A stretch of 64,000 bases of DNA from Streptomyces puniciscabiei (GTDB lineage: Bacteria; Actinomycetota; Actinomycetes; Streptomycetales; Streptomycetaceae). Of this stretch, positions 50,452 to 63,968 are shown one piece after another. The translations under genes and the position numbers were made by a program. The notes under the pieces were generated by a model that saw only the letters and a program-made list of their open reading frames with translations, was not told the DNA's origin and searched no databases. The stretch covers positions 1,254,501-1,318,500 of the forward strand of contig NZ_VFNX01000001.1 of the NCBI RefSeq assembly GCF_006715785.1. Reading direction: 5' to 3'. Every line of letters starts with the position of its first letter. Position 1 is the stretch's first letter.

Positions 50452-51045
50452 GTGTCAGTGGTGCGTGCCAGACTCGCGTGCATGGGGAAGATCGACGGGG
50501 TGGAAGCCCTGATCAGGGAGGTCCGGGCCGGATCCCGGATCAAGTACCTCCACTTCTGGGGGCACCGGCCGAGGCCGGACGGCAGGATCGGCGCGAGCTG
50601 CCTGAGCCAGTGGTGGCCCTCGCCGTTCACGGTCGACGGGGTGGAGTACGCGACGGCCGAGCACTGGATGATGGCGGGCAAGGCGCGGCTGTTCGGGGAT
50701 GCCGAGGCGGAGCGCCGGGTCCTGGCCGCGGGGCATCCTTCTCAGGCCAAGAAAGCGGGGCGGCTGGTCCGGGGTTTCGACGAGGCGATATGGGAGCGGG
50801 AGCGGTTCCGGATCGTGGTCGAGGGCAGCGTGCACAAGTTCGCGGCCGACGACGCGCTCCGGCAGTTCCTGCTCGGCACCGGTGAGCGGGTGCTGGTGGA
50901 GGCGAGCCCCGTGGACCGTGTGTGGGGGATCGGGCTCGCCGCGGACGACGACGCGGCTTCGGATCCCGAGCGGTGGAGGGGGCCGAACCTGCTGGGCTTC
51001 GCCCTGATGGAGGCGCGGGAGCGGCTGGCGGGGGCGGGGGCCTGA
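50452..51045 (+). CDS. NADAR/YbiA-family protein
   Basis: 197 residues from a GTG at 50452 (GGACGGA just before); an ATG at 50482 is also possible. Family motifs: LHFWGHRPRPDG, SQWWPSPFTVDGVEYATAEHWMMAGKARLF, VLVEASPVDRVWGIGL and GPNLLGFALMEAR. NADAR enzymes are N-glycosidases acting on riboflavin-pathway intermediates or ADP-ribosyl groups on nucleic acids, and some are found with NAD-linked conflict systems. Stand-alone here, divergent from the aldehyde dehydrogenase. Confidence 0.9.
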   Translation: MSVVRARLACMGKIDGVEALIREVRAGSRIKYLHFWGHRPRPDGRIGASCLSQWWPSPFTVDGVEYATAEHWMMAGKARLFGDAEAERRVLAAGHPSQAKKAGRLVRGFDEAIWERERFRIVVEGSVHKFAADDALRQFLLGTGERVLVEASPVDRVWGIGLAADDDAASDPERWRGPNLLGFALMEARERLAGAGA

Positions 51046-54484: not shown

Positions 54485-55005
54485 TCACGGGAGTTCGGCG
54501 GCGTTGGCGAGCTGGTAGCCGTGGAGCCCGGTGGCGAGGAAGCGGTCGGCGTTGCCGGTGACCGTGGTGAGGGTGGCCGACCAGGCGTCGAGGATGGCGA
54601 CCGCGGTGTCGCCGTTGGCCTTGGTGCCGCCGATCCGCCGGCGCAGGGCGTTCTGGTGGGCGGCATGGATGTCGTTGTAGAGCGTGGGGCAGTTCTGCCC
54701 GGAACCCGTTCCGCGGTACACGGTGGCCTGCGGGCGGGCCTGCCAGGTGCTCTGGGAGTGCGGGTGGGCGGTGAGCCGCCGCCGCCGGCCGGCCAGGGGT
54801 CCCGGCCGGCGGTGACGCGCACCTTGGCGCGGTGCAGGTCGCCGGCGTTGTGGAGCAGACCCGCGTGGGCGAACGCCCGCCGGCGCGGTCTGGGCCGCGT
54901 CGGCCCCGGCGCCGAAACCGCGGCGATCCCACCGCCGAGGGCTCCGGCCGCCGAGGGTGAACAGGCCCCGGCGGGGGCCGGAGCGGGGGCCGGAGCGACA
55001 ACAGT
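54485..55005 (-). pseudogene. Truncated, frameshifted alginate-lyase-like exported protein
   Basis: Pieces of one protein are spread over frames: a Tat-like start RRGLFTLGG, then in another frame ALGGGIAAVSAPGP, then FAHAGLLHNAGDLHRAKVRV, then back in a third frame ATVYRGTGSGQNCPTLYNDI and TAVAILDAWSATLTTVTGNA with GYQLANAAELP and stop. These resemble the first 150 residues of actinobacterial alginate-lyase-family (heparinase-like toroid) exported proteins, whose remaining 200 or more residues are missing at the junction with the phosphodiesterase gene. Confidence 0.6.
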
Positions 55006-55007
55006 TA

Positions 55008-55505
55008 TCAGGCGGGCAGCGCTTCCAGGCGCTTGATCTTCTTCCGCACGACATACAGCGGGATCACGCCGAAGACCCCGAACGACATGTCGACCAGGCT
55101 CCACCAGAAGGGGATCCCGCGGATCGGCCCGCAGACCAGGGCGAGCGGGATGATCCCGGCGCAGGCGATCATCCCGAACTCGACGACCCAGATGTTGCGC
55201 ACCGGGTCGCGGTAGGGGCCGTAGAAGGCGACCGCGATGACGAGGTGGGCGAAGGCGAGCCAGTCGGTGCCGTAGAGGACGAAGGGGTACTTGGCGTCCA
55301 CGGAGTCGAGGCCGTCGCGAACCCTTGCGATCCAGGCCATGAGCCCCGGCAGGTACTCCCGCACCGACAGCGCCCGCAACGCGCTCTCGGTCCAGCGCAG
55401 TTCGTGCACCAGGGGGAAGGCGGTGGCGCCGCTGAGGACCAGGCACACCACGAAGAGGGCCAGCCAGACGCGAATGCCCTTGAGCAGGGCGGCTCTGTCG
55501 CTCAT
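55008..55505 (-). CDS. Small integral membrane protein
   Basis: 165 residues with four predicted membrane segments (VWLALFVVCLVLSGATAFPL; LAFAHLVIAVAFYG; VEFGMIACAGIIPLALVCG; FWWSLVDMSFGVFGVIPLYV) and a basic C-terminus RKKIKRLEALPA. A GGAGG lies 14 bases before the ATG. Resembles conserved bacterial membrane proteins of unknown function. Stands between the lyase pseudogene and the NLR-like gene, on the same strand as the latter, which ends 62 bp upstream. Confidence 0.8.
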   Translation of the reverse strand: MSDRAALLKGIRVWLALFVVCLVLSGATAFPLVHELRWTESALRALSVREYLPGLMAWIARVRDGLDSVDAKYPFVLYGTDWLAFAHLVIAVAFYGPYRDPVRNIWVVEFGMIACAGIIPLALVCGPIRGIPFWWSLVDMSFGVFGVIPLYVVRKKIKRLEALPA

Positions 55506-55566: not shown

Positions 55567-58500
55567 TCACTCCAGCGCTTCCTCCAACGGCACCTGCCAC
55601 ATCCCCGGAAGATGCCCGTCCAGCTCCCCCGGTTCGAAGCGGCACATGCCGACCGCGTGCCAGAACTCGCCGGTGACGTCCCCCTCGTACTTGTATCCGC
55701 CCGACGCGGACAGCGCCGCCCAGCCGCCGGGCATGCCGACCAGGGTGGCCCGCAGGGCGGCCGGGCCGTCGGCGGGCACGTTCCACAGCCGTACCGTGCC
55801 GTCCTCGCCACCGCTGGCCAGCACGGAGCCGTCGGGGCTGAAGGCGACGGCCAGGATCCGGCCGGTGTGGCCCGTCAGCACGGCCGCCTCCTCACCGGTG
55901 TCCGGGTTCCACAGGCGGACGGTGCGGTCGTCGCCCGCCGTGGCCAGCAGGGGGCGCCGGGGGTGGACGGCCGCCGTCCAGAGCTTGCCGGTGTGGCCGG
56001 TCAGCCGGTGGGCGATCTCGCCGTCCTTCCAGATCACCGCCGTGCCGTCCCAGGAGGCGCCCGCCAGCCACGAGCCGTCGGGGGCGAACGCCACGGCGTA
56101 CACCCGGTCGGTGTGGCCGTCGAGGACAGAGGTGATCCGGCGTTCCGTCACGTCCCAGATCCGCACCTTGCGGTCGTCGCACCCGGTGGCCAGGACCGCG
56201 CCGTCGGACCGGAAGGCGATCGCCCGGACCCGCCCGAAGTGCTCGGTGATGGTGGCGACGTGCGCCCCGGTGGCCCGGTACCACAGCCGTACCGTGTCGT
56301 CGTCGTTGGCGGTGGCGAGGAGTTCGCCGTCGGCGCTGAACGCCTCGGCCCACACGTGGTCGGTCTCCACGTCGAGTTCGCGCTGGTACTCCCCCGTGGC
56401 CGCGTTCCACAGGTAGAGGTCGCCGTCGCTGCTCGCGGTGGCCAGCAGCGGTCCGGCGGGGCCGAACGCCGCCGACACCAGGCGGTCGCTCTGCCCGGTC
56501 AGTTCGCGCAGCCGCCGCCCGGAGGCGGCGTGCCACACCCGGACGACACCGTCGTTGCCGCCGGCCGCCAGCATCGAGCCGTCGGCGCTGAAGGACAGCG
56601 TGCCGACGCGCCGCCCGTGGCCGCGCAGAATGCGCCGGCCCTGTCCGGTGGCCGGCTCCCACAGCCGTACGACGCCGTCGTTGCCGCCGGTCACCAGCAG
56701 CGCGCCGGGGCCCTGGGCGGGCGTGTCGCCGTGCGGGCGGAACTTGCACACCCACACCGAGCCGCGGTGCTCGGCGGGCTGGCGGTGCAGCGGCGCCGCG
56801 ACCGGGTCGGCCTCCGGGTCGATCCGCCACAGCCGGACCACTCCGGCGCTGTCCCCGGCGGCGAGCAGGGTCCCGTCGGGGTCGAACAGCACCTGGTACA
56901 CGGCCCCGCGGCAGCCGCCGAGCAGCCCGGCCGAGCGGCGGTCGGCCAGGTCCCACAGCCGTACCTCCCCTTCGGTGTCCCCGCTGACCAGCAGGGCGCC
57001 GCCGGGGTGGAAGTCCAGGGTGTAGACGCGGCCGGAGTGCCCGGTGAACTCGTGGCGCGCGGCTCCGGTCGCCGGGTCCCACACCCGGACCGTGGCGCCC
57101 TGCCCGTCGTCGCCCTGGTCGGCGGTGGCCAGCACGGTGCCGTCCGGGCTGAACCGCGCCCGGTACACCGCGCCGCGATGGCCGGGCAGTTCGCCGGTCT
57201 GCCGCCCGGTGTCCAGGTCCCACAGCCGTACGGCGCCGGCGGCGTCCCCGGTGACCAGGGCGGTGTCGCCGGGTGCGAACGCCACGGTGTAGACGGGCGC
57301 GGAGTGACCGGGCAGCCGGTGCAGCGGGGTGCCCGAGGCGGTGTCCCAGACGGTGACCAGACCGTCGGCGTCGCCGGTGGCCAGCAGGGTGCCCTCGGCG
57401 TCGAGGACGAGCGGCCAGACGCCGGTCTCATGGATCTCCAGGCGGTGCAGGCAGCGGCCGGAGACCGGGTCCCACAGCCGTACGGTGCCGTCGGAGCTGC
57501 CGGTGGCCAGGACACGGCCGCGGAACTTGACGGCGTAGACCCGGCCGGTGTGGCCCTGCAGGGTGCGCAGGGGGATGCCGGTGGCGGCCTCGCACACCAG
57601 GATGCCGCCGTCCTCGCTGCCGACGGCTAGCAGTTCGCCGTCGGGGCTGTAGGAGATGGGTTCGGGCAGCCGGCTGGTGCGCATGTCGTAGCCGTACGGC
57701 ACACCGACCGCGGAGGGCCGGAAGCCGGAGTCGACGGCCATGCCGGGCGCGATCGCGGCGGTGGCCAGCTCGGGACTGCGGTCCAGGGAGCCCAGCGTCG
57801 CCGAGATCAGCGCCGCCCGCCGCCACCGGCCGCCCGCCACCCGGGCGCCGGTCAGGTCGGTGCCGATCAGCCGGGCCCGCCTCAGGTCGGCACCGCGCAG
57901 GTCCGCGCCGGTCAGATCGGCGCCGTCGAGCCGGGCGCCGACCAGGCGGGCGCCGCGCAGGACGGCTCCGGAGAGGTTGGCGCCGACCAGCCGGGCGTCG
58001 GTGAGGTCGGCGCGGGTGAGGTCCACGCCCGAGAAGTCGCGGTGGGACAGGTCCTCCCCGGCCAGGGCGGCGCCGCGCAGATCGGTGTGGGCGGGCACCC
58101 GGAGCCGGCCGAGGATCCGCACGGCGTTGCCGCGGGCCGCGTCCGAGGAGGCGTCCTGGGAGGTGCCGGACAGCTCCCGCTCGGCCCACGCCTGGCAGAT
58201 CCGGTGGTCGGCGAGGTCGCACAGGAACTCCACGGCCAGCCGGCTGAGCTGTCGCCGGCCCAGCAGGCCGCTGTCGCCGCCGGTGATCCTGCGGGCGCAC
58301 TCCCGGGCGACCAGCCACTCCACCACCGAGCCGTGGATGAACCGGAACACGCCGTCGTCGCTGCGCACCAGCAGACTGCCGGACCCGATGGCGTGGGCGG
58401 TCTGCGGCACCGACAGCCGGGCGTCCGCGAGCCCGCTCAGGGTCTCGGCGACGTCGGTGAGCTCGTCCAGCCGCAGCGAGTCCTGCCCGCTCTCCCACAG

Positions 58501-61395
58501 CCGCAGCGCGAGCGCGGTGACCGCGTCCCACAACTGCTCCAGGGACAGCCCGGGCGCCCGGCCGGGGCTGCCGCTGCCGCGCTGGACCTCGAAGTTCAGC
58601 CAGGCGGTGAGGACCTCCTCGTACAGTCCGGCTGGGCTGAGGGCGCGCCCGGCGCCGGCGACCGCGCGCAGCCGGTCGTCGTCGAGGTCGGCGACGAAGC
58701 CGAGCAGCCGGGGGTTGCGGCACAGGGCGAGCAGGTCGGGGATGGCGTCCAGCAGCCGGATCCGGCGGTCGGCGGCGCGTTCGTCGCCGTCGTAGCGGTT
58801 CACCAGATAGGCGCGGATCTGCTGCGGGCTGAACTCCCGTACGGCCAGCACCCGGCGGTGCGGGAGCAGGCCGACGCGTTCGCCGAGCGCGGTGAGCACC
58901 TGGCCCTGGGAGCGGAAGTGCTGGGTACGGCTGGACACCACGATCTTGGCGCTGTCCACGGCGGAGTCCAGCAGCACCTGCAGCCGCTCGGCGGCACGGT
59001 CGTACGTCACCTGGTTCACGAGCTCGTCGAAGCCGTCGAAGAGCAGCACGATCCGGCCCTGCTGGAGCATGTACCTGAAGGCCCGCAGGTCGATGTTGTC
59101 GACGCCGTGGGCGGCGAGGTGCGCGGCGACGAGCCCCTCGAACGAATAGGCCCGGTCGAGGGCGTGCAGCTCGATCAACAGCGGGACGAGATGCGGCAGT
59201 TCACCCGGGATCCGGCGGGCCAGCTCGCGCAGCGCGAAGGTCTTGCCGTGCCCGAAGTCGCCGAGCAGCAGCAGGAAGCGCCCCTGGTCGGAGTCGAGCA
59301 GCCGCAGCATCTCGTCCACCAGCCCGTCGCGGTCCTCGGCGTCGAGGCGCTCCACCTCCCGGTACCGCTGCGGCAGGTACATGCCCGGGGGATAGCGGGG
59401 GTCGGTGCGCAGCCGCTCGCTCTGCCCGGCGACATACCCGCGCAGGTCCAGCAGCCCCTGGAACTCGGTGAAGCTGCGCACCCGCACCCCCCGGCGACGG
59501 GCGGCGTCGCGCAGCTCGCGGGCGGGCGGCGGCCCGTCGTGGACGAGTTCGGCCTCCGCCTCGGCGTCGGCGGCGTGCACGAGGGCCACGAACCGGTCGA
59601 CGTCCTGCGCGGTCGGCGTACCGATGTGCACCGCCACCCGCTGCTGCCGCACGAAGCCCGACTGGCTCCAGGTGACGAGCAGTTGCGGCACCGGCCCGTC
59701 CACCGGGCGGATCTGGGCGCCCTCGTGCCGGGTGCGGCAGACCTCCGCGACCCGGGCGAGCAGGATCTCGGCGGGGGTCTGCACGGCGCGCGGCTCGGGC
59801 TCGTGGGCGGGCGCGGCAGTGCCCTCGTGGTCACCGGCGGGCGCGGCCTCGGGCCCGAAGGCCCGCTCGGCCCGCCGCCACTGGACGGCGCGCCGCCGGG
59901 GCTCCCCCGGCCCCTGCCAGACGGCCACGCCCTCCCGGCCGACCCGCACCAGCTGGTGCCCGCCGGGCCGCCCGGCGCCGATCACCGGCACCTCACCGGC
60001 CGCGGTGGCCAGGGCGGGCAGCGCGCCGGGCTCGGCCGGACCGTGCAGCAGCAGGTGCAGCCGGGGCGCGGTCAGCCGGCTCAGCACATCGGTGTCCCGC
60101 AGCGGCCCGGCCCCGTCCAGTGCCGCCGTACCGGCGCGACGGACACCGGGGGCGGCGACACGGGTGGCACCCGGCGCATGCCGCACCACCCCGATCCGCA
60201 GCCACCCCTCCGTCTCGTGCGGCCGCAGCGCCTGCGCGAACCAGGCGGCCTGCTCGCGCCCGACCAGCCCGTACTGGTCGTCGCGCCGGTGGCTGTACGC
60301 CATGGAGGAGTTGAGCCCCGCGACCACGGTGTGCAGCTCGGGCACGGGGAAGAGCGTCCACGGCTGATCGCTGTCGAAGACGACGTCGAGCCCCTGGTAC
60401 AGCTCCTGGAACAGCCGGGCGAAGTGCCGCCACTTGGGCCAGTACGGCGGCCGGGGCGGCATCTCGTCGGCCTCGCAGGTGCTGAAGTAGGCCTGGCAGG
60501 CCGCCAGGTTGACGTCCTGACCACCCGGGACCAGGGCGACCCGGTGCGGTTCGAGCCCGAGCAGGGCCCGCAGCCCGGTGAGGAACGCGAGGGCCTGCTC
60601 GAACTCGCGCCGGCTGCCCGAAGCGGTGAGATCCCCGGTGACGACCAGCAGATCGGGCGAGGGCGCCCCGGAGTCCGCCAGCTCCACCAGATCACCCCAG
60701 ATCGCCGCCTGTAACTCGGCGGGGTCCTGCCCCCGGCCGAAGGCGGGCCCGGCCAGCTGGAGCACGGTGACCGCGTCCCGCTCCCGGACCGCCCCGGACA
60801 CGCGCGGGTACGACGGCGGCGCGGCGGGTCTGCGACGCCCCGCCCACCCGGGCCCGCCGAGCGGCCGCCCGGGGCTCGGCACCGCCGGGGCGGCGGGCAC
60901 GGGACCGCCGTTCGCACCACCCGGGTAACCGGGCGGCAGGCTGGGCCGGGCCCGCCCGTCGAGGGCCTGCCGGACCCGGGCGAGCAGCAGCTCCCGGGCC
61001 GCCGCCGGATCGGCGACCGGCACCAGGTCCACGTACGTGATGGTGGCGAGCAGCCCCTCCACCGGGATGTCCTCGACCCGTACGGTGATCAGCCGCCGCT
61101 CCGGCGCGTCCGGATCGGCCCGCAGGGCGGCCTGCCACTCCATCCGCCCGTACCGGGACCGCTCGTAGTTCCTGGACAGCACGGCGATGACGGCGGCGGA
61201 CTCGCTCACGCCCCGGTCCATGAAGTCCACGAAGTTGGTGCCCGGCACGAAGTCCCAGGCCTGCAGCACCGTCCGGTACCCGGCCTCCTCCAGGGTCCAG
61301 GCGATCCAGGACGCCCAGCGCTCGTCGGCCGGTGAGTAGCTGATGAAGAAGTCCAATGGCCCGGTGTCCCCCGGGTTGTTCTGTCGAGCCACCAT
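55567..61395 (-). CDS. NLR-like TIR-phosphoesterase-NACHT-pentapeptide-WD40 protein
   Basis: 1942 residues. TIR domain 12-150 (DFFISYSPADERWASWI; presumed NADase Glu86 in RYGRMEW). Residues 205-430 follow a calcineurin-like phosphoesterase but have lost metal motifs (GGQDVN where GNHDV is usual). Residues 550-665 look like a degenerate restriction-endonuclease-like domain. STAND/NACHT NTPase from about 690: Walker A LGDFGHGKTF (Lys718), Walker B IVLLFDGFDEL near 785. Pentapeptide repeats about 1104-1186 (GADLTGADLRGADL), then some 15 WD40 blades (about 1245-1870; SEDGGI, HTGRVYAVKF). Known logic of such proteins: the repeats sense a trigger, the NTPase oligomerises, the TIR depletes NAD or makes a signal. 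No ribosome site is evident before the ATG; possibly leaderless. Confidence 0.93.
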   Translation of the reverse strand: MVARQNNPGDTGPLDFFISYSPADERWASWIAWTLEEAGYRTVLQAWDFVPGTNFVDFMDRGVSESAAVIAVLSRNYERSRYGRMEWQAALRADPDAPERRLITVRVEDIPVEGLLATITYVDLVPVADPAAARELLLARVRQALDGRARPSLPPGYPGGANGGPVPAAPAVPSPGRPLGGPGWAGRRRPAAPPSYPRVSGAVRERDAVTVLQLAGPAFGRGQDPAELQAAIWGDLVELADSGAPSPDLLVVTGDLTASGSRREFEQALAFLTGLRALLGLEPHRVALVPGGQDVNLAACQAYFSTCEADEMPPRPPYWPKWRHFARLFQELYQGLDVVFDSDQPWTLFPVPELHTVVAGLNSSMAYSHRRDDQYGLVGREQAAWFAQALRPHETEGWLRIGVVRHAPGATRVAAPGVRRAGTAALDGAGPLRDTDVLSRLTAPRLHLLLHGPAEPGALPALATAAGEVPVIGAGRPGGHQLVRVGREGVAVWQGPGEPRRRAVQWRRAERAFGPEAAPAGDHEGTAAPAHEPEPRAVQTPAEILLARVAEVCRTRHEGAQIRPVDGPVPQLLVTWSQSGFVRQQRVAVHIGTPTAQDVDRFVALVHAADAEAEAELVHDGPPPARELRDAARRRGVRVRSFTEFQGLLDLRGYVAGQSERLRTDPRYPPGMYLPQRYREVERLDAEDRDGLVDEMLRLLDSDQGRFLLLLGDFGHGKTFALRELARRIPGELPHLVPLLIELHALDRAYSFEGLVAAHLAAHGVDNIDLRAFRYMLQQGRIVLLFDGFDELVNQVTYDRAAERLQVLLDSAVDSAKIVVSSRTQHFRSQGQVLTALGERVGLLPHRRVLAVREFSPQQIRAYLVNRYDGDERAADRRIRLLDAIPDLLALCRNPRLLGFVADLDDDRLRAVAGAGRALSPAGLYEEVLTAWLNFEVQRGSGSPGRAPGLSLEQLWDAVTALALRLWESGQDSLRLDELTDVAETLSGLADARLSVPQTAHAIGSGSLLVRSDDGVFRFIHGSVVEWLVARECARRITGGDSGLLGRRQLSRLAVEFLCDLADHRICQAWAERELSGTSQDASSDAARGNAVRILGRLRVPAHTDLRGAALAGEDLSHRDFSGVDLTRADLTDARLVGANLSGAVLRGARLVGARLDGADLTGADLRGADLRRARLIGTDLTGARVAGGRWRRAALISATLGSLDRSPELATAAIAPGMAVDSGFRPSAVGVPYGYDMRTSRLPEPISYSPDGELLAVGSEDGGILVCEAATGIPLRTLQGHTGRVYAVKFRGRVLATGSSDGTVRLWDPVSGRCLHRLEIHETGVWPLVLDAEGTLLATGDADGLVTVWDTASGTPLHRLPGHSAPVYTVAFAPGDTALVTGDAAGAVRLWDLDTGRQTGELPGHRGAVYRARFSPDGTVLATADQGDDGQGATVRVWDPATGAARHEFTGHSGRVYTLDFHPGGALLVSGDTEGEVRLWDLADRRSAGLLGGCRGAVYQVLFDPDGTLLAAGDSAGVVRLWRIDPEADPVAAPLHRQPAEHRGSVWVCKFRPHGDTPAQGPGALLVTGGNDGVVRLWEPATGQGRRILRGHGRRVGTLSFSADGSMLAAGGNDGVVRVWHAASGRRLRELTGQSDRLVSAAFGPAGPLLATASSDGDLYLWNAATGEYQRELDVETDHVWAEAFSADGELLATANDDDTVRLWYRATGAHVATITEHFGRVRAIAFRSDGAVLATGCDDRKVRIWDVTERRITSVLDGHTDRVYAVAFAPDGSWLAGASWDGTAVIWKDGEIAHRLTGHTGKLWTAAVHPRRPLLATAGDDRTVRLWNPDTGEEAAVLTGHTGRILAVAFSPDGSVLASGGEDGTVRLWNVPADGPAALRATLVGMPGGWAALSASGGYKYEGDVTGEFWHAVGMCRFEPGELDGHLPGMWQVPLEEALE

Positions 61396-61496
61396 GTACT
61401 GATGATGCCGTGAAAAGAGAGGCTGATACCGGTCGTTTCCAGGCGTTCGACGGCGCCCTGGTCACAGCGACGCACAAACGTGCGACCCTTCCCATC

Positions 61497-62780
61497 GTGC
61501 GTGCCTTATTGCTGCGTCTGCATGTCCTCGACCGGGTGGCGATCGGTCTGCTGGCGACCGGACTGCTGTGCGTGGCCACGGGACTGCTGCCGACCGGTTC
61601 CGCGTCCGACGCGATGACCCGCATCGCCCCGCTGCTGGCCTTCCTGGGCACGGTGATCGTGCTGGCCGAACTGACCAGCCGGGCCGGGGTGTTCGACGTG
61701 GTGGCGGCGCGGGTGGCGAGGGCGGGGAAGGGCAGCTATCCGCTGTTGTTCCTGCTGTGCGTGCTGTTCGCGTCGGTCACCACGGTCGCCCTCAACCTGG
61801 ACACGACGGCCGTCCTGCTGACTCCGGTGATGCTGGCGCTCGCCTCCCGGGTGGGTATCGCGCCGGTGCCGCTGGCCATGACGACGGTCTGGCTGGCCAA
61901 CACCGCGAGCCTGCTCCTGCCGGTGTCCAACCTGACGAACCTGCTGGCCGCCAACCGGGTCGCGCTGTCCCCGCTGGGCCTGGCGGGGCGCATGTGGGCA
62001 CCGCAACTCGCCGCGCTGGTCGTGACGATGGCTTGTTTGTGGCTGTTCTTCTGGCGCCGGGGGCGGCGTGGGGGGCCTGTTGTCGACGATTACGGCCTGA
62101 TGGCGGCCGTACCGGTGTCGGGGCCGGGTGCCGCGCGTGCGGCGGACGTGCGGGTGGACGCCGCCGACCGTTATGTGCCGCCCGCCGTGCACCGCCCCGC
62201 CGACCGGGTGCTGTTCCGGGCCTGCGCGCTCGCCTGCGCCGGCTTTCTGCTGGCCATCCTGGTGGCCGACGTCCCGCTGTGGATGGCCTCCGCAACGGCC
62301 GCGCTCGTCGCCGTGACGGCGTTCGGAGTGCGGCAGCGGTCCGCGCTCCGGCTGTCGCTCGTCCCCTGGCGGCTGCTGGTCATGGTGCCGGGCATGTTCC
62401 TGGTGGTCGAGACCTTCGACGCACACGGGCTGCACCATCTGCTCGCCTCGGCGGTCGGTACCGACGGCGGCACCCGCGGCCTGTTCCGCGCCGCGGCGGT
62501 GGGCGGCGGCCTGTCCAACGCCCTCAACAACCTGCCGGTCTATCTGGCCGGGGAGGCGGCGGTGCCGGTGGGCAACCACGACCAGCTGCTGGCCCTGCTG
62601 GTCGGCACCAACGCCGGTCCGGTGATCACCCCTTGGGCGTCCCTGGCGACGCTGCTGTGGTACGAGCGCTGCCATGCGTACGGCGTCCGGGTGCCGGTTG
62701 GCCGGTTGATGGGGACGGGGGCGGTGCTGGCCGCGTGCGCGGTGGTCGCGGCGGTGGCCGCCCTGGCTGTGACGCGTTAG
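61497..62780 (+). CDS. ArsB/NhaD-family ion transporter
   Basis: 427 residues from a GTG at 61497; upstream in-frame starts would overlap the divergent NLR gene. About ten to eleven membrane segments. Family signatures include VTTVALNLDTTAVLLTPVM and WLANTASLLLPVSNLTNLL in the first half and the paired GGGLSNALNNLPVYL and GTNAGPVITPWASL in the second, the two inverted re-entrant repeats of the ion transporter superfamily. Could move arsenite, sodium/proton or an organic anion; no arsenic genes are near. The stop overlaps the end of the convergent DUF397 gene. Confidence 0.88.
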   Translation: MRALLLRLHVLDRVAIGLLATGLLCVATGLLPTGSASDAMTRIAPLLAFLGTVIVLAELTSRAGVFDVVAARVARAGKGSYPLLFLLCVLFASVTTVALNLDTTAVLLTPVMLALASRVGIAPVPLAMTTVWLANTASLLLPVSNLTNLLAANRVALSPLGLAGRMWAPQLAALVVTMACLWLFFWRRGRRGGPVVDDYGLMAAVPVSGPGAARAADVRVDAADRYVPPAVHRPADRVLFRACALACAGFLLAILVADVPLWMASATAALVAVTAFGVRQRSALRLSLVPWRLLVMVPGMFLVVETFDAHGLHHLLASAVGTDGGTRGLFRAAAVGGGLSNALNNLPVYLAGEAAVPVGNHDQLLALLVGTNAGPVITPWASLATLLWYERCHAYGVRVPVGRLMGTGAVLAACAVVAAVAALAVTR

Positions 62781-63112
62781 GCGTTCGTCTTCACGGCACC
62801 GACGAACGCCGACCAGGCGGGTGCCGAGAAGACGACGGCGGGGCCGGTGGGGCGCTTGCTGTCGCGGACGGGGACGTGGGTGGGGGCGGCGGTGTCGTTG
62901 ACTTCGAGGCAGTCACCGCTGCTCGCTCCGCTGTGGGTCGACTTGCGCCAGGCGGTGGCTTCGAGGCAGTCGCCGCCGCTTTCACCGCTGTAGCTCGACT
63001 TGCGCCAGACGGTGACTTCCAGGCAGTTGCTGCTACCCCCGTCGCTGTACGACGACTTGTGCCAGCCGGACAGCACCGAGGCGTCAGGAATGGAGTGCTC
63101 GCTGCGCTTCAT
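62777..63112 (-). CDS. DUF397 protein with three tandem motif copies
   Basis: 111 residues. The DUF397 hallmark occurs three times in a row: WHKSSYSDGGSSNCLEV, WRKSSYSGESGGDCLEA and WRKSTHSGASSGDCLEV, each about 19 residues apart, followed by the single C-terminal half VPVRDSKRPTGPAVVFSAPAW. Ordinary members have one copy and 60-80 residues. The start lies inside the end of the XRE gene (overlap about 29 bp), so the pair is co-translated. Confidence 0.88.
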   Translation of the reverse strand: MKRSEHSIPDASVLSGWHKSSYSDGGSSNCLEVTVWRKSSYSGESGGDCLEATAWRKSTHSGASSGDCLEVNDTAAPTHVPVRDSKRPTGPAVVFSAPAWSAFVGAVKTNA

Positions 63113-63968
63113 GTTCGTAATCCTCCGCGACGGACCTGAGCAGATCCAGGGACTTTCGGTGCGACAGGGCATCGCCCAGCGCCTGATCGTAGATCTCCTG
63201 ACACTCGCGCACCATGGACGGCAGTTCGATGATCCGCCCGCTCTTCACGCCTTCCGCATAGGCGATGGGCGGGAGGTCTTCGAACCACATAAGGGAGAGA
63301 AAGCCCGCCTGCAGGGCATGGGCGCCCAGGGAGTACGGGAGGACATGGACGCGAATTCGGCGGCTCGCGCCCAACTCCGCGATGTGACGAAGCTGCTCGC
63401 ACATCACGAGCGGTCCCCCGACCACACGGCGTAGCACCGCTTCGTCGAGGAGGCAGCAAACCTCGGGCGAGTGGAAACTGTCCAGGATGCGGGCCCGTTC
63501 CAGCCGAGTGGCCACCAACTCCTCGAGCTCCTCGTCGCTCCTGCGCGGATAGCCGAAGCCCAGTACCTCGGATGCATACTCCCTGGTCTGCAGGAGTCCC
63601 GGCACCACCGCAGGCGCGTATTCCCGGATCTCTCTCGCCCGGCCCTCGTACTCCAGCGCCTCCTCGAAATACTCGGCCACCTTCCTGCCGTCCAGCACCG
63701 GCAGGAACCGCTCGAAGAACCCGCCAGTGTTCAGCACCTTGTCCAGCCGCCGCGCGTCCTCCACATCCGGCCTCCGCCTGCCCGCCTCGATGTGGGCGAT
63801 GTGCGTGCGGGACATCGCGACAAGTTGGCCCAGCTCCTCCTGGGTGAGCCCGGCCGCCTCCCTCCGTCGCCTGAGTTCCTCCCCGTACCGCACCCGCGAG
63901 ATGGGATTGTCCTCGATGGCCACCTTTCCACTCCCCCTCGTGCTGACTGCGTCGTCACGCTCGGTCAT
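63084..63968 (-). CDS. XRE-family regulator with DUF5753 domain
   Basis: 294 residues. N-terminal helix-turn-helix (LRRRREAAGLTQEELGQLVA, then MSRTHIAHIEAGRRRP) and DUF5753 region with YAPAVVPGLLQTREYASEVL, LLDEAVLRRVVGG and HVLPYSLGAH. Second such regulator in the window; same architecture as the 4981-5835 gene but clearly divergent in sequence. It partners the overlapping three-motif DUF397 protein. No anti-sigma ATPase gene is visible before the right edge. Confidence 0.92.
   Translation of the reverse strand: MTERDDAVSTRGSGKVAIEDNPISRVRYGEELRRRREAAGLTQEELGQLVAMSRTHIAHIEAGRRRPDVEDARRLDKVLNTGGFFERFLPVLDGRKVAEYFEEALEYEGRAREIREYAPAVVPGLLQTREYASEVLGFGYPRRSDEELEELVATRLERARILDSFHSPEVCCLLDEAVLRRVVGGPLVMCEQLRHIAELGASRRIRVHVLPYSLGAHALQAGFLSLMWFEDLPPIAYAEGVKSGRIIELPSMVRECQEIYDQALGDALSHRKSLDLLRSVAEDYEHEAQRALHS

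Follow-up and report, generated by a model that had tools for sequence, protein, structure and literature searches.

Bacterial relatives of NLR proteins are mostly studied as antiphage sensors. A stretch of 64,000 nucleotides of the Streptomyces puniciscabiei genome (hereafter the window; NZ_VFNX01000001.1, positions 1,254,501 to 1,318,500) encodes a giant protein of this kind, and a preliminary description had read it as a candidate antiphage or self-recognition system. The question is whether the locus supports either reading or points to another one. In our judgement, the prospect is about even that the protein is an NLR-like STAND switch with a TIR output, serving as the output arm of a conserved gene cassette.

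The protein is encoded by a single ORF on the minus strand (55567..61395), and its domains follow the order TIR-MPE-iREase-NACHT-pentapeptide-WD40. The TIR domain (residues 14-140; 60976..61356, minus) matches PF13676 (E 7.9e-36 when the domain piece was searched) and has a catalytic-type Glu86. It is followed by a pseudo-metallophosphoesterase (MPE) domain of the Rv0805/SMPDL3A fold (residues 208-515; 59851..60774, minus) and by a NACHT-associated inactive REase domain (residues 544-651; 59443..59766, minus; PF22739, E 6.4e-40). The NACHT NTPase (residues 707-865; 58801..59277, minus) scores over the cut-off of PF05729, with Walker A at K718, Walker B at D787, and DE at 790-791. Pentapeptide repeats (PF00805, three stretches) occupy about residues 1101-1190 (57826..58095, minus; limits set by eye). 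A WD40 array (residues 1247-1888; 55732..57657, minus) matches PF00400 in 14 stretches and was divided by eye into 15 units, and a conserved C-terminal tail (residues 1889-1942; 55570..55731, minus) has a mean identity of 0.66 across orthologues.

Full-length relatives are 52-99% identical, and residues 1-1100 share 99% identity with a Streptomyces incarnatus protein. Glu86, Lys718, Asp787, Asp790, and Glu791 are invariant in 121/121 sequences (the window protein and 120 listed of 611 homologues). Glu86 is kept in 77 of the 79 locus orthologues, the other two having a gap at the site, and K718, D787, D790, and E791 are kept in 79/79. From family knowledge, we take Glu86 to be the catalytic residue. 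Profile matches and residue conservation thus confirm the earlier claim of one 1942-aa chain with TIR, NACHT, pentapeptide, and WD40 parts; the TIR and NTPase folds are genuine with their key residues Glu86 and Lys718 kept, and Walker B, previously put near 785, is placed at D787. Judged from sequence, the TIR domain with its conserved Glu fits the TIR NADase effector family, and the NACHT domain between an N-terminal effector-type domain and C-terminal repeats fits the NLR-like STAND or bNACHT layout. By its predicted domains, the protein is a bacterial NLR-like STAND protein with intact-looking TIR and NACHT; we infer the effector role of the TIR domain and the role of the repeats in this protein. 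EAD and VMAP domains were absent among Pfam families at E<=1 (residues 1-1232). PADLOC-DB includes Avs models, and none of the seven PADLOC families matched at E<=0.1 bears the Avs name.

The two domains between TIR and NACHT look like decayed enzymes. VIA-align/Foldseek lists for the MPE model are dominated by MPE and bear little on the REase part. We take the metal-ligand motifs of MPE to be DxH, GD, GNHD, H, and GHxH. Positions 216, 218, 292, 293, 453, and 455 hold G, A, G, Q, P, and E, against D, Q, N, H, H, and H in the relative at L136. The first metal-ligand Asp (216) is replaced by Gly in 79/79 orthologues. In the GNHD motif, Asn292 is left in 7/79 and His293 in 18/79; GD-motif position 255 is Asp in 67/79 and Asn in 12/79; and position 453 of the expected GHxH is Pro in 47/79 and His in none of the residue types listed. 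Asp294 and His406 are retained in 79/79. The MPE fold is predicted to be present with most metal ligands lost, and it looks catalytically dead. For the REase domain, the best family is Pfam NA-iREase3 (named inactive), the structural match to MspJI/AspBHI is weak, and D..(D/E)xK was not seen by eye in the conserved pattern of residues 543-655 in the orthologue alignment. Alignment alone cannot prove enzymatic death for either domain. MPE and REase were rejected as working effectors because the metal site and catalytic residues are gone. The phosphoesterase-like and endonuclease-like parts described earlier stand as folds and families, but apparently not as active enzymes.

Distant relatives in genome G065 (36-38% identity) have near-intact MPE motifs, and those at L136 read SDTQFG, GDL, GNHD, and GHTHD. 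Two G065 relatives score as Metallophos (E 6.7e-12 and 4.9e-8), whereas three cassette-type copies do not. The near-intact copies indicate that the decay probably occurred in the cassette lineage, and the comparison with these multi-copy relatives offers a clean case of a likely change from effector to scaffold or sensor. A relative in genome G017 (34% identity) has a trypsin-like domain instead of TIR, and its MPE is degenerate too. With this swap, the effector position at the N-terminus stands out as exchangeable. A relative with a trypsin-like domain in the place of TIR, ahead of MPE, iREase, NACHT, and WD40, is encoded at L143:1768-7527 (minus).

Several known systems resemble the protein in part. 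In bNACHT antiphage proteins, the NACHT module follows an effector at the N-terminus and precedes a C-terminal region (PMC12169576). The window protein shares this module, with an effector-type domain at the N-terminus, but differs, as known from sequence, in that its effector is TIR, that a pair of apparently dead enzyme folds and a WD40 array are present, and that it belongs to a conserved five-gene cassette. The DS-8 and DS-9A metallophosphatases have a homologous SMPDL3A-like MPE, DS-8 has NACHT as well, and defence by these systems requires the catalytic residues of the MPE (PMC13092281). Here most of the metal ligands are gone and TIR stands in front; the metal site is likewise degenerate in comparison with the phosphodiesterases Rv0805, SMPDL3A, and GpdQ. 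Among the tested relatives found, DS-8 is the nearest by parts. If the comparison is fair, the cassette lineage has moved its output to TIR. Work on conflict systems of multicellular prokaryotes describes TIR, calcineurin-like MPE, STAND NTPases, and repeats (Kaur et al. 2020, PMC7159879), and a later TRADD-N paper describes the same toolbox (PMC8195603). The window protein shares this toolbox and a multicellular host, and a VMAP/EAD2 locus is near it in the window genome; unlike those systems, no EAD or VMAP domain was found in the NLR protein, and its architecture is constant, not variable. The STAND NTPase with a long WD40 array also resembles Apaf-1, as profile matches to Apaf-1 WD40 regions indicate. 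Apaf-1 combines NB-ARC and CARD with 7+8 WD40 blades, whereas NACHT and TIR are found here, and there is no sign of common descent beyond WD40 and STAND. The WD40 region possibly forms two propellers with a 7+8 split.

The NLR gene belongs to a conserved five-gene cassette. Upstream of it lie, in order, genes for a PLD-fold membrane protein of about 320 aa, a cupin-like protein of about 220 aa, a member of the inositol-monophosphatase (IMPase) family (PF00459, E 1.6e-39), and, in divergent orientation, a CitMHS/ArsB-like permease (61356..62780, plus; PF03600, E 4.9e-35; true start probably about 61497, by eye). Pfam and NCBIfam scans gave no credible family for the PLD-fold or cupin-like protein. 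The phospholipase D motif HxK(x)4D (HKD) is absent from the former, and we read the latter as cupin-like from its conserved HSHSW and, further along, FH. In the window genome, a DUF397 gene (62777..63172, minus; PF04149) and an HTH/DUF5753 regulator gene (63084..63968, minus; PF19054, PF13560) are inserted between the permease and the remaining cassette, which lies just outside the window (G000:C1, about 1318699-1321193, minus). The regulator family was called in four loci (L020, L022, L049, and the window genome), and both inserted genes fall outside the conserved set in the gene orders compared.

The comparison drew on 86 loci, among them that of the window genome and two duplicates (L102=L034, L103=L043), and 79 have at least 5.2 kb upstream. 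When a gene was counted if it lay on the expected strand no more than 6.5 kb away, these 79 loci had the permease in 79, IMPase in 75, cupin-like in 74, and PLD-fold in 72 (77, 73, 72, and 70 of 77 after removal of duplicates), in a set biased to close relatives as the best 80 of 267. The counts were unchanged on a recount with cleaned queries. Among the misses, the block is 6.7-10 kb away in three Microbispora loci, inverted in L099, and just beyond the limit in L076. L056 has no detected membrane gene; at the broken G010 locus, the permease and a portion of the IMPase gene are left, and the membrane and cupin-like genes are gone. In the stretches fetched around the distant G065 and G017 relatives, cleaned queries found no cassette gene. 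We interpret families 10, 12, and 13 of the gene calls as artefacts that run antisense or out of frame across genes of the cassette, and a 794-aa permease-family member from L105 was discarded as an antisense artefact. Second PLD-fold gene copies occur beside the cassette at L075:15626-16588 (plus) and L051:5183-6145 (minus). The TIR, NACHT, and WD40 layout is of a known NLR-like kind; in the literature searched, drawn mostly from outside subscription journals, no description of the five-gene cassette was found.

Reference genomes yielded 267 confirmed relatives. The best 80, which were fetched, are 52-93% identical and include Streptomyces, Kitasatospora, Streptacidiphilus, Nonomuraea, Actinomadura, Microbispora, Streptosporangium, Herbidospora, Micromonospora, a Pseudonocardiales MAG, and others. 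Seven of 41 genomes in the genus sample had matches at E<=1e-20; six have an orthologue (G000, G005, G006, G010, G026, G043), and G025 is TIR-only. Two copies are interrupted, that of G010 (L105) being split over two frames and that of G005 (L104) interrupted. Presence in 6/41 genus genomes, together with these copies, indicates that the gene is dispensable and could still be accessory defence. Among 69 genomes of the class sample there were five matches, with an orthologue in G000 and G064 and distant or TIR-only relatives in the other three (f20). These f20 genomes (G065, G085, G103; L118-L134) had at least 18, 17, and 16 matches to the TIR-MPE query listed, with 26 candidates scored per genome. 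The matches, mostly TIR-only and in frames that vary widely in length, make up a large expansion; in G065 they include three long TIR-MPE-iREase-NACHT relatives, with a further partial one.

A tree of 79 orthologues and three outgroups was built by a quick method and judged by eye, the outgroups and a few rows being long-branched. It contains clades of Streptomycetaceae (44 rows, support 100), Nonomuraea (12, 100), Actinomadura (11, 99), and Kitasatospora (2, 100). Herbidospora (Streptosporangiaceae) groups with Actinomadura (97), so Streptosporangiaceae do not form one clade, and several deep forks lack resolution. The tree largely follows taxonomy, which we read as mainly vertical inheritance with many losses. 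Co-occurrence was followed genome-wide for the membrane-protein and cupin-like genes. In the genus sample, the PLD-fold gene accompanies the NLR gene in 5/6 genomes, G010 being the exception, and occurs in 0/35 of the others; it is present in 2/69 class genomes, the same two that have the orthologue (Fisher P 8e-6 in the genus and 3.7e-9 over the 108 distinct genomes of both samples, with kinship ignored). Membrane-protein queries and cut-offs differed between the samples, and distant f20 relatives were not counted as orthologues. The cupin-like gene is in the same five NLR genomes, with a weak 32% match in G003, which is without the NLR gene. Cassette genes therefore tend to co-occur or be jointly absent in the genomes sampled. 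Distances of the partners correlate with NLR distances (Mantel r 0.96 for the membrane protein, 0.94 cupin-like, 0.93 IMPase, 0.91 permease). Among non-cassette neighbours, r was 0.91 for coaE (24 loci) and 0.76 for the S1 gene (21 loci), and the coaE value means that common inheritance alone could explain much of the partner correlation. Conserved neighbours need not work together, which counts against a functional reading of the cassette.

The wider surroundings were compared as well. EAD2-trypsin, NB-ARC-TPR, and EAD2-VMAP-M0-VMAP-C genes lie upstream of the cassette, at most about 20 kb from the NLR start, in a vWA-MoxR-associated conflict locus outside the window (L100:9756-18788; G000:C1 about 1321756-1330788). 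Such genes are the toolkit of the multicellular conflict systems (PMC7159879). They are partly shared with L048 only, among loci most of which have at most 10 kb on that side; the conflict neighbourhood exists here and is not a recurrent feature among the loci compared. The defence islands that the preliminary description had suggested looking for around homologues did not recur, and the conserved five-gene cassette was found instead. It had also taken a housekeeping context to speak against defence, and this is nearly what Streptosporangiales-type loci offer: coaE follows the NLR gene in 24 loci, an S1-domain gene (presumably rpsA-like) does so too in 21, and uvrB precedes it in some. Against PADLOC, seven of ten proteins encoded nearby in the window genome gave no match; for the other three (HTH regulator, adenosine deaminase, and NADAR), the hits covered individual domains and no system. 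The NADAR-domain gene (50455-51042, plus; PF08719, E 6.7e-53) belongs to a family called in nine flank loci. NADAR proteins act on ADP-ribose compounds, and this gene, outside the conserved cassette, could relate to TIR products. An ORF at 54485-55054 (minus) had no Pfam family found and may be a relic or no gene; we take it to resemble a piece of a secreted alginate-lyase-like enzyme.

WD40 repeats on a NACHT protein of a hyphal organism recall fungal HET-like receptors, in which WD40-NACHT proteins serve incompatibility, and a self/non-self receptor of this kind would diversify its repeats between strains. HET/HNWD-like receptors are defined by near-identical, variable-number WD40 repeats, which were not found in these blades. 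All 15 units, agreeing with the earlier count of about 15, are at least 70% filled in 79/79 orthologues, so that blade number is constant. Blades within the protein have a mean identity of 35% and a maximum of 52%. In eight other orthologues, same-position blades are 48-64% identical and other positions 33-38%; the same-position blade is the best match in 10-15 of 15 cases, and concerted evolution was not seen. Median dN/dS was estimated by simple counting over 136-153 pairs among 18 close Streptomyces sequences; in such GC-rich genes, dS probably comes out too low. The medians were 0.05 for TIR (the lowest of all parts), 0.12 for NACHT, 0.16 for REase, 0.25 for MPE, 0.35 for residues 901-1100, 0.81 for the short linker 516-542, 0.15 for the C-terminal tail, and 0.16-0.60 for the blades, with blades 4 (0.46) and 5 (0.60) the least constrained. 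By these estimates, every domain is under purifying selection, and the receptor is conserved without rapid diversification at the scale of the orthologues compared. Conserved blades under purifying selection argue against a diversifying receptor; with blades neither homogenised nor hypervariable, diversifying self-recognition was rejected, the earlier proposal is disfavoured, and we consider a self/non-self receptor of this kind very improbable.

A stand-alone antiphage sensor in the bNACHT/Avs style, in which a phage protein bound by WD40 would make NACHT oligomerise and TIR deplete NAD, so that infection aborts, with the neighbours incidental, seems rather unlikely, although antiphage defence as such remains plausible from domain content. 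It draws on the TIR and NACHT architecture, the patchy presence in the genus, the nearby VMAP/EAD2/NB-ARC cluster, and an MPE that matches DS-9A/DS-8 models, DS-8 (MPE and NACHT) being experimentally supported as antiphage (PMC13092281). It is opposed by a cassette kept in nearly all testable loci, a taxonomy-like tree, conserved blades under purifying selection, VMAP-type neighbours that partly recur in one other compared locus only, and loss of the MPE active site that DS-8 requires. The preliminary antiphage reading thus keeps its domain layout and patchiness and is weakened by its setting. The constant neighbours suit a regulatory switch of transport or metabolism, without immunity or death, in which the NLR controls or is controlled by the permease, IMPase, and cupin. 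The permease is divergent in 79/79 testable loci, coaE and the S1-domain gene both follow in 21, and diversifying selection was not seen; however, the invariant TIR Glu and the trypsin swap at that position look like effectors, and most genus genomes sampled are without the cassette. We consider such a switch unlikely.

For the STAND switch with a TIR output, the supporting observations are the invariant residues, purifying selection, blades, cassette, co-occurrence, partner distances, and effector swap. The 15-blade WD40 array, aided by the pentapeptides and by the apparently dead MPE and REase as scaffold or sensor, would hold NACHT off until a conserved trigger frees it for ATP binding and oligomerisation. 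Clustered TIR domains might then cleave NAD or make a TIR signal, and firing would probably lead to growth arrest or death of the hyphal compartment. The switch would be set by a small molecule or a state of the membrane, which the PLD-fold protein, cupin-like protein, IMPase, and permease probably sense, process, or move; their constancy points to a small-molecule or membrane trigger. We infer oligomerisation, NADase activity, trigger, outcome, and the biochemical role of the cassette in this switch, whose mechanism is proposed by analogy. Tentatively, and with somewhat less confidence than an even prospect, the five genes may form an ancient, vertically inherited immune-metabolic circuit of filamentous actinobacteria, in which the receptor, with its two pseudoenzyme domains, guards or reads a small-molecule/membrane module formed by the other four products, and disturbance of that module (by phage, competitor, or development) fires TIR.

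Overall, the locus resembles a long-standing, built-in alarm circuit more closely than a mobile antiphage gene. The locus can be tested in genetically tractable multicellular bacteria. A deeply conserved, non-diversifying NLR with constant partners and decayed enzyme folds suggests that bacteria may also use NLR-type switches as guards of their physiology.
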